44,275 nucleotides of DNA, from positions 1 through 44,275 of the forward strand of contig VBFV01000076.1 of NCBI GenBank assembly GCA_005881335.1, given 5' to 3'. Shown one piece after another: positions 19,396 through 35,377 of this stretch. The notes under the pieces were generated by a model, which saw nothing but the letters and a program-made list of their open reading frames with translations, had not been told where the DNA came from and searched no databases. This DNA comes from Chloroflexota bacterium. Its GTDB lineage: Bacteria > Chloroflexota > Dormibacteria > Dormibacterales > Dormibacteraceae. Both the position numbers and the translations under genes were made by a program. How positions within the stretch are numbered: position 1 is the stretch's first letter; every line of letters begins with the position of its first letter.

Positions 19396-20106
19396 TCAGA
19401 TCATCTTGCGGACGCAGTCGGGGCAGCCCTCGGCCTCCTTGACCGCGTCTGACTTCAGGAGAAGGCCGACCAGCTTGCCGTCGGATGTGGTCACGGGCGA
19501 GCTCTCCAGTTTGTGCCCCGTCATGTAATCGGCCATCTCCTTGATGGGCACATAGGGCCGGAAGGTGCTGGGCCCCGGACGCATCGCCTGCTCGATCAGC
19601 ATGTCCGCGTCCTTGGCGAGCTCCCCGGCTCGCAGCAGGCCGAGCACGATGCGGTTGGGATCGACAGCCACGGCCGCATCCCAGCGCGCGGCGCGAGCGC
19701 GATCGCGGACGTCACCCACGCGATCCGTCAGCGAGCAGACCGGGACGTCCTTGCGCGCCACCGTGCCCGCACGCGGGCGAGCCGCGTTCTCGCCTTCGGT
19801 CGGGAGGCCGGCGGCCATCCAGTCGAGCTTGCCGGCCTTGTAGTGGGAGACGTCAGTGAACCCGAGGAGCTCGAGCCGCGCCGCGGCCCTGGGCGCCATG
19901 TCTCAAGCCGAATCCCAGCAGTACACGATGACCGGTCGGTGTGGATCGAGCGAGGCTGCGCTCTCTCGATTGATGTCAGGCAGCGGGATGCTTCGAGCGC
20001 CGGGAAGGTGGTCCTCTTCGTACTCCTTGGCCGAAAGCACTTCGACGAGCTGCGCGCCTCGCGCGACGAGGTCCTGGAGCTGACCGCGATCGATCAGGTT
20101 GGCCAT
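19396..20106 (-). CDS. rhodanese-CBS domain protein with in-frame TGA (19903-19905) at the catalytic Cys position; candidate selenoprotein
   Basis: ATG at 20106 (MANLIDRGQLQDLV...VIVYCWDSA), TGA codon 68, then same frame DMAPRAAARLELLGFTDVSHYKAGKLDWMAAGLP and a CBS pair to 19396. Confidence 0.8.
19869..19908 (-). promoter_or_regulatory. candidate bacterial SECIS element (rhodanese gene)
   Basis: Base stem GCTTGAG/CTCGAGC (contains the TGA), upper stem GCGCC/GGCGC, loop CAGGGCCGC. Confidence 0.5.
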
Positions 20107-20122
20107 GAATCCATCGTAGAAG

Positions 20123-21706
20123 TCACGCCGGCGTCGCCGAGGCGGGCTCCTTCTCCGCGACCTCTTCTTCCTGCGGCTGGGCGGCGTTGCTCTGGATGCC
20201 GACCCAGTTGACGATGGCACCCACGAGAAGCAGTCCCGCGCCGATGACCATCGCGAGGTGGAACGAGCTCGTCGAGGCGTCTCGCACCGCAGCCACGAGG
20301 TTGGGATCGGTCGGCTTGTTCAAGGGGCTGACCAGTTTGCGAAAACTCTCCGAAGTGACGTCGATGCCGGTGACGCGCGCCGCCAGCAGGGAATAGAAAT
20401 TCGCGGTGAGGAAAACGAAGATCAGCGCCCCCGCCAGCTGCGGACCGACGCGCGAGATCGCGTTGTTGATCGCCGACCCGAGCCCCGCGTACCGCACCGG
20501 CACCGACGTCATGAGCGCGGTCGTCAGCGGCGCGACCAGGAGACAGAGGCCGAACCCGAAGATGATCGATGCGGGCAGGAAATCGGTGAAGTACGCCAGC
20601 GGAGGAAGGTACGTGCCCGGATTGTTCGGGTCCAGCTTCCACGGCGTGCTGGTCGCCGGAACGCGCACGTACCAGAGCACGCCGAGCGCCATGATCACCG
20701 GGCCGGCGGTCATGAACAGGCGCGCGCCGTATCTCGCGGACAGGCTTCCGAACCGGCGCGACAGGAAGATCAGGAAGAGCGACCCTGGGATCCCGGCCGC
20801 GCCTGCTGCCGCCGCGGCGTAACCGAGCGTCCCCTGCTGGAACAGGCCTACGTAATAGAAGGTCACGTAGAGCGCGCCGTAGATCACGAGCGTCGAGATG
20901 TTGGTGACCGTGAAGTTGCGCGAGCGGAAAAGCTCGAGTGGGATGAGCGGGTGCTTCGCGCGCATCATCCAGAACGGAAGGGCGATGGTCGCCACCACGC
21001 CCACCCCCAGGATCACGAAACCGAGCGCGTCGTGCCACGCCCGCTGCTGGCCGTAGATCGTCCCGAACGCGAGGCCCCCGACCGCGAGCGCGACGATGGC
21101 CGCGCCGGTCCAGTCGAACTGCGACGAGGCTTGCTCATCGCGGCTCTCCGGCACGTGCTTCCAGGTCGCCCACGCCGCCACCGCCACCAGCGGAACGTTG
21201 AGAAAGAACGCGGCCCGCCACGAGATCGTGTCGACCAGGAGACCGCCGATCAGCGGGCCGAGGATCGTGGTCGCGCCGGAGGCGCCGGCCCACGTCCCGA
21301 ACGCCCGTCCCTGCTCGCGGCCCGAAAAGTTAGCCGTGATCAGCGCCAGCGACCCCGGCACCAGGAGCGCCCCCGCGGCTCCCTGCAGGATCCGGAACAG
21401 GACGAGCAGCTCGGTCGTGGGGGCGAAGCCGCACAGCACAGACGTCACACCGAATCCGAGCAGTCCCCACAGGAACGTTCGCTTGCGGCCGTAGTAGTCG
21501 TTCACCGCGCCGGCGAGGATCAGGAGCGCGCTGAGGGTCAGGAGGTAGGCGTTGTAGATGTACGACTGGCCTTCGAGAACGCCGAGGAAGGAGCGCGGGA
21601 GGTCTCGTCCGATTCGGGGCAGTGCCACGTTGACGACCGTCGAGTCGAGGAAGACGATCCCCGACCCAAGCACCGCCGCGGCGAGGATCCAGCGGGAACG
21701 GGTCAT
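20123..21706 (-). CDS. MFS transporter, DHA2/EmrB-QacA-like
   Basis: FLDSTVVNVALPRIGRDL, about 14 TM segments, ILQGAAGALLVPGSLALI. Confidence 0.88.
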   Translation of the reverse strand: MTRSRWILAAAVLGSGIVFLDSTVVNVALPRIGRDLPRSFLGVLEGQSYIYNAYLLTLSALLILAGAVNDYYGRKRTFLWGLLGFGVTSVLCGFAPTTELLVLFRILQGAAGALLVPGSLALITANFSGREQGRAFGTWAGASGATTILGPLIGGLLVDTISWRAAFFLNVPLVAVAAWATWKHVPESRDEQASSQFDWTGAAIVALAVGGLAFGTIYGQQRAWHDALGFVILGVGVVATIALPFWMMRAKHPLIPLELFRSRNFTVTNISTLVIYGALYVTFYYVGLFQQGTLGYAAAAAGAAGIPGSLFLIFLSRRFGSLSARYGARLFMTAGPVIMALGVLWYVRVPATSTPWKLDPNNPGTYLPPLAYFTDFLPASIIFGFGLCLLVAPLTTALMTSVPVRYAGLGSAINNAISRVGPQLAGALIFVFLTANFYSLLAARVTGIDVTSESFRKLVSPLNKPTDPNLVAAVRDASTSSFHLAMVIGAGLLLVGAIVNWVGIQSNAAQPQEEEVAEKEPASATPA

Positions 21707-34759: not shown

Positions 34760-35377
34760 ATGTCCCAGCTCGAACCGATCGATCTCGTCATCTTTTCGGA
34801 CTACGTTTGACCCTGGTGCTACATCGACTCGGTCAGGGTCGAACAGCTCGAGCGCGATGGCTCTGTACACGTCACGTGGCTGCCCTTCGAGCTCCATCCC
34901 GAGGCGCCGATGGAGGGGATTCCGCGAGAGGTCTATTTCCGCGGCCGGCGCTTGGAGCGAGCGGAGGAGCACCTCAGGTCGATCGCGGCTGATGCCGGGC
35001 TCGAGTTGCAGCATCGCGACGTGATCATCAATTCCCGCCGTGCGCTGGGCGCGGCCGAGTTCGCCCGCGAGCGCGGCCGATTCGACGAGATGCACCACGC
35101 GCTGTTCCAGGCTCACTGGGAAGGGAGCGGAAAGCTCGAGAACGTCGACGATCTTGTGCGAATCGGCACCGCCGTGGGGCTGGACGCCGCCGAGCTCAGG
35201 ACCGCGATCGATGAGGGTCGCTATGCGGATCTGATCGACGAGCACCGCCGGATCGCATCCTCAGTCGGCATCGACGCGATCCCGGCGCACATCTTCGGCC
35301 GGCGCTACCTGGTCCTCGGTGCGCAGCCCTATGAGGTCCTCAGGCAGGTCGTCGATCGCCTCCATCGTCCGGATTGA
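34760..35377 (+). CDS. DsbA/FrnE-family thiol oxidoreductase with in-frame TGA (34808-34810) at the first Cys of CPWC; candidate selenoprotein
   Basis: ATG 34760 MSQLEPIDLVIFSDYV-[TGA]-PWCYIDSVRVEQLERDGSVHVTWLPFELHPEAP continuing in frame to 35377; family motif is CPWCYIG. Confidence 0.85.
34805..34844 (+). promoter_or_regulatory. candidate bacterial SECIS element (DsbA/FrnE gene)
   Basis: 11-bp stem GTTTGACCCTG (34805-34815) / CAGGGTCGAAC (34834-34844), one U-G wobble, encloses the TGA; 18-nt loop. Confidence 0.6.

Follow-up and report, generated by a model that had tools for sequence, protein, structure and literature searches.

In the bacterial SECIS (bSECIS) model, which rests on the Zhang and Gladyshev consensus (PMC13188914), an upper stem of 4–16 bp carries an apical loop of 3–9 nt with a G within the first two loop positions, the distance from the UGA to the loop is 16–37 nt and the minimum free energy is ≤ −7.5 kcal/mol. 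Form 1 of the DsbA-like selenoproteins is described there by the domain PF01323 and a UxxC motif, while the rhodanese-like selenoproteins comprise forms 1–5 (PF00581, NF041203 and NF045694), with UxxS as the form 1 motif (PMC13188914). We analysed a stretch of 44,275 nucleotides from a Chloroflexota bacterium (contig VBFV01000076.1; hereafter, the window), in which a DsbA-like gene and a gene combining rhodanese and CBS domains are each interrupted by one in-frame TGA. An earlier note on this DNA had proposed that the two TGAs are served by SECIS stems of the same geometry, in which the UGA itself pairs with a downstream UCG. Our analysis indicates that these are the right genes and the wrong stem: both are very probably selenoprotein genes whose SECIS is of the ordinary bacterial type, namely a 7-bp hairpin starting 16 nt past the U of the UGA, with the UGA:UCG stem as a by-product.

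Results

Positions relative to the Sec codon are numbered with the U of the UGA as 0, corresponding to 34808 in the DsbA-like gene and to 19905 on the minus strand in the rhodanese gene. The DsbA-like gene (34760..35377, plus strand; PF01323) encodes 205 amino acids when read through its single TGA (Pfam DSBA, 4e-29), and the translation displays the redox motif U-P-W-C, spanning Sec17 to Cys20. Throughout the class, its Sec codon (codon 17; 34808..34810, plus strand) reads TGA in every intact homologue and in every match that spans it. The three class matches without TGA begin downstream of the codon, and one of the genomes concerned, G012, has the TGA together with a one-base frame break.

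The rhodanese-CBS gene (19396..20106, minus strand), delineated by translation, Pfam and homologues, encodes 236 amino acids via one TGA and combines a rhodanese domain (Pfam Rhodanese, 4.6e-13) with a C-terminal CBS domain (5.7e-9). Its motif is C-W-D-S-A-U-D-M-A, with Sec68 lying within YCWDSA-U-DMAPRAA and the CBS domain following. The Sec codon (codon 68; 19903..19905, minus strand) is TGA in every match within the class. Across the phylum, the gene was found in 42 of 399 sampled genomes, with an in-frame TGA in all except one frame-broken copy. The Sec aligns with the Cys of a homologue in Nonomuraea, which has TGC at that codon. Both TGAs are supported as Sec codons with a SECIS shortly downstream. 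Immediately upstream, and likewise on the minus strand, an MFS transporter gene (20123-21706) precedes the rhodanese gene. Single-base frame breaks directly past the Sec codon were seen in L041 and L132 (G012) and in L147 (G249), affecting one DsbA copy and one rhodanese copy; the break in the rhodanese copy, from an assembly of two contigs, falls within a G run and resembles a sequencing error.

The rhodanese-CBS family extends beyond Chloroflexota. In the Actinomycetota, Rubrobacter and Pseudonocardia (the latter on plasmids) carry the gene with TGA and the same hairpin codons. RefSeq splits the Pseudonocardia plasmid copies at the TGA into a 66-aa rhodanese and a CBS protein; the split or partial records are L220:438-1103, L221:780-1448 and L218:801-1403, and the Rubrobacter record lists the CBS part only. 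An MFS transporter neighbours rhodanese-CBS in both Pseudonocardia plasmids, and in one of these plasmids an alkylmercury lyase family gene also lies nearby. A contig labelled Candidatus Eisenbacteria (L106) holds a 66% identical rhodanese in which both the TGA and this SECIS recur, reflecting either transfer or a binning error.

The genome from which the window derives (2.2 Mb, 80% complete) encodes a tRNA-Sec (70.1 bits, TCA anticodon), on which ARAGORN agrees, and a selD that itself carries a Sec TGA (L163:516-1430, G000:C191). The same-genus genome G010 has Cys at the Sec position of selD (L162). Neither selA nor selB was found in this 80% complete assembly, and PF09106 (SelB wing) had no match in the genome. 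The majority of genomes from this genus contain full-length selB, and selA adjoins selB in the close sister genomes G009 and G010, so that, at this degree of completeness, one assembly gap at the selA-selB locus would account for both absences and is their simplest explanation.

In both genes, a hairpin is found at the same distance from the UGA, with a 5' arm that starts at +16, a stem of 7 bp and a loop that opens with GG at +23. In DsbA, this best-supported SECIS spans 34824..34842 on the plus strand (UCGACUC-GGUCA-GGGUCGA; loop 34831-34835; +16 to +34) and has a folding energy of −9.9 kcal/mol, with an equally stable structure in 0 of 200 shuffles; many relatives have UCGACUCG-GUC-CGAGUCGA over this span. 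In the rhodanese gene, it spans 19873..19889 on the minus strand (GGGCCGC-GGC-GCGGCUC; loop 19882-19880; −12.1 kcal/mol), and the homologues follow GRGCCGC-GNN-GCGGCUC from +16 to +32. When the two genes were aligned jointly, the hairpin did not fall into one shared column register, and separate models were built.

The DsbA hairpin is paired in 88% of cells across 46 distinct sequences, with compensatory changes at +21:+29 (UA, UG or CG in 46/46), +19:+31 (AU, GU or GC) and +23:+27 (GC or CG). In an alignment of 20 sequences, 91.7% of cells are paired and three pairs have changed on both sides, compared with at most 56% of cells when the hairpin is slid. RNAalifold applied to the DsbA homologues returns this same hairpin. 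Run against the genome, a covariance model built on the DsbA SECIS placed only the DsbA site above noise (next best, 17.9 bits over a 27-nt span), and an Rfam scan of the whole window gave no match.

The rhodanese hairpin is paired in 99.6% of cells across 68 distinct homologues. Among the codons that form it, GCC GCG nnn CGG CTC, each of GCC, GCG, CGG and CTC is used in 70/70 and the Arg codon is CGR or AGR only, whereas in the rest of the gene the commonest codon at four- and six-fold degenerate positions mostly reaches 36–80%. Against synonymous shuffles, the hairpin scores z = 21, although such z-scores overstate significance as the homologues are akin. No two-sided covariation was seen among the rhodanese homologues because nearly all pairs are invariant. 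Nonomuraea, the only Cys rhodanese homologue examined, shares the Ala-Ala, Arg and Leu codons and therefore does not provide a clean Cys control for the synonymous invariance. The +16 hairpin is marked by covariation in DsbA and by synonymous constraint in rhodanese.

The bases that the earlier note had paired are all present. In DsbA (34805..34844, plus strand), 34805-34815 (GTTTGACCCTG) can pair with 34834-34844 (CAGGGTCGAAC) to form 11 bp with one U-G. In rhodanese (19869..19908, minus strand), 19908-19902 can pair with 19875-19869 (7 bp) below an upper stem, GCGCC/GGCGC, formed by 19896-19892 and 19882-19878. The claimed distance of 33 nt between the U of the UGA and its partner G also holds at both 34808 and 19905. 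Isolated 51-nt segments of this species fold in silico as the note described (−17.8 and −20.9 kcal/mol), and plain folding of the species' own segments favours the UGA:UCG stem over the +16 hairpin. The full 57- and 56-nt segments fold no better than dinucleotide shuffles to any significant degree (z = −1.05 and +0.38).

Sharing of the 33-nt spacing by two unrelated genes had been considered unlikely to be trivial. In synonymous shuffles that keep protein and codon usage fixed, however, UGA pairing at offset 33 arises in 57% of cases for DsbA, 45% for rhodanese and 26% for both together, because Val/Leu-Glu stand at an equal codon distance in both proteins. A rhodanese helix of at least 7 bp appears in 10% of shuffles. 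The sole unusual feature of the pairing is the length of the DsbA helix: at least 11 bp is reached in 0.6% of synonymous shuffles and at 0.9% of the window's ordinary codons. The common spacing is therefore not evidence by itself, and in part it reflects another hairpin common to both genes. The idea of two SECIS elements with one geometry survives in this altered form, as the common geometry is real and belongs to the +16/+23 hairpin rather than to the UGA:UCG stem.

Across homologues, the UGA:UCG stem is not conserved. Covariation had been named beforehand as the observation on which its refutation would turn, and in DsbA there was none above shuffles, with 78.5% of cells paired against a column-shuffle mean of 76.9%. 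Several pairs of the DsbA stem are broken in most homologues, +4:+29 being intact in 19/46 and −1:+34 in 20/46, and the 13-bp long form occurs in 3/47 homologues. The upper stem in rhodanese is paired in 59% of cells. Compared with independent synonymous shuffles, pairing of the UGA:UCG stem is raised (z about 9–12), as would be expected since its 3' bases are shared with the +16 hairpin and the homologues are akin. The combined rhodanese stem covaries above every column shuffle; this signal sits in the unconserved upper stem, of whose cells 62% are paired in this comparison, and is not read as selection. As the two structures use the same 3' bases, they are mutually exclusive, and conservation of the UCG follows from the hairpin. 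The genome also holds a third Sec gene, selD, and there a 33-nt partner of the UGA occurs in 0/40.

The base preceding the Sec UGA (34807 in DsbA; 19906 in rhodanese; L163:545 and relatives in selD) is U much more frequently than codon usage would predict. Observed counts, with codon-usage expectations that ignore kinship in parentheses, are 22/47 (3.3) for DsbA, 44/70 (5.6) for rhodanese and 40/40 (6.3) for selD; in Cys-type selD, U occupies this position in 2/8. Since selD lacks the 33-nt pairing, the UGA:UCG stem does not account for this U. A role for it as an element of that stem was ruled out, as it is also fixed in selD and as several rhodaneses have CAA there, leaving an A unable to pair with A34.

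Discussion

On the reading that we favour, SelB and Sec-tRNA would insert Sec at the UGA of the DsbA-like and rhodanese-CBS genes, and the ribosome would be directed by an ordinary bacterial SECIS, the 7-bp hairpin with its 5' arm at +16 and its GG loop at +23. The UGA:UCG stem would then arise as a by-product of GC-rich sequence together with the conservation of the 3' arm, and it carries no clear mark of structural selection. Binding of this hairpin by SelB and production of the full-length Sec proteins presumably follow.

Were the SECIS instead a long stem like that of E. coli, including the UGA and closed by UGA:UCG at 33 nt in both genes, one would understand why this pairing is present and favoured in silico in this species, why paired cells exceed independent synonymous shuffles and why the combined rhodanese stem exceeds every column shuffle. 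The pairs unique to such a stem are broken in many homologues, though, its DsbA covariation is no higher than in shuffles, its rhodanese upper stem is often unpaired, selD does without it and its conserved UCG is explained by the +16 hairpin. Moreover, bases near the codon in the decoding site lie within the ribosome and are unable to pair at decoding, and hence the UGA:UCG stem cannot be the form bound by SelB at that moment. Taken together, these points make the long stem highly unlikely as the SECIS. Alternatively, the UGA stem might form on the free mRNA in this clade and hide the UGA until the ribosome melts it and the +16 hairpin forms, a two-state RNA that might tune translation. Both folds are indeed possible, with the UGA stem the stabler, in the window's genome (G000), in the sister genome G009 and in a few more genomes. 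This restriction to few genomes (the 13-bp helix being the rare exception in DsbA), the disruption of the UGA stem by a synonymous CCG in the sister sequences L021 and L022, and the frequency of UGA stems in GC-rich sequence nevertheless render such a switch very unlikely.

Nor do we give any real credence to the TGAs being sequencing errors, pseudogene stops or ordinary stops before a separate gene, even though RefSeq annotates the Pseudonocardia rhodanese-CBS gene as two genes split at the TGA. Across many genera, every intact homologue has this codon between frames open on either side; it occupies a Cys position (TGC in Nonomuraea), and a tRNA-Sec is present. The assignment of both genes to selenoproteins with the conserved +16 hairpin as predicted SECIS is the one that we retain.

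These findings correct which RNA element marks Sec in the DsbA-like and rhodanese-CBS genes and illustrate that folding of a single genome can favour a stable, unconserved stem over a conserved hairpin. They also document a rhodanese-CBS selenoprotein family that is widespread in Chloroflexota, occurs on actinomycete plasmids and is split by RefSeq. A 5'-U context for the Sec UGA is suggested and can be tested. Possibly, if short of probably, this U acts as a second cis signal in the lineage, through decoding context and not through pairing, alongside a near-invariant rhodanese-CBS SECIS common to Chloroflexota and Actinomycetota, as if SelB were reading sequence as well as shape.

Among described selenoproteins, the DsbA-like protein resembles form 1 by domain and motif, with a DSBA domain and Sec as the first residue of the CxxC motif (UPWC/UPFC). 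The rhodanese-CBS protein is broadly comparable to the rhodanese-like selenoproteins (forms 1–5) in having a rhodanese domain with Sec, and UDMS or UDLS stands in the majority of homologues, in keeping with the UxxS motif of form 1; the window protein differs from forms 1–5 in its C-terminal CBS domain and reads UDMA. None of the NCBIfam seleno-rhodanese models matched it above its cut-off, and none of the papers searched names selenoprotein, rhodanese and CBS domain together.

In the E. coli fdhF SECIS, G-U/G-G stands in the apical loop some 20 nt past the UGA. The conserved window hairpins share this placement of the apical-loop bases but, unlike the fdhF element, have no lower stem that takes in the UGA. 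With respect to the bSECIS model, the hairpins, whose SECIS role is predicted, fall within all four numeric constraints: stems of 7 bp, loops of 5 nt (GGUCA) and 3 nt (GGC) that both begin with GG, a UGA-to-loop distance of 20 nt in both genes and the folding energies given above. They depart from it in that the rhodanese hairpin is almost invariant in sequence, another phylum included.
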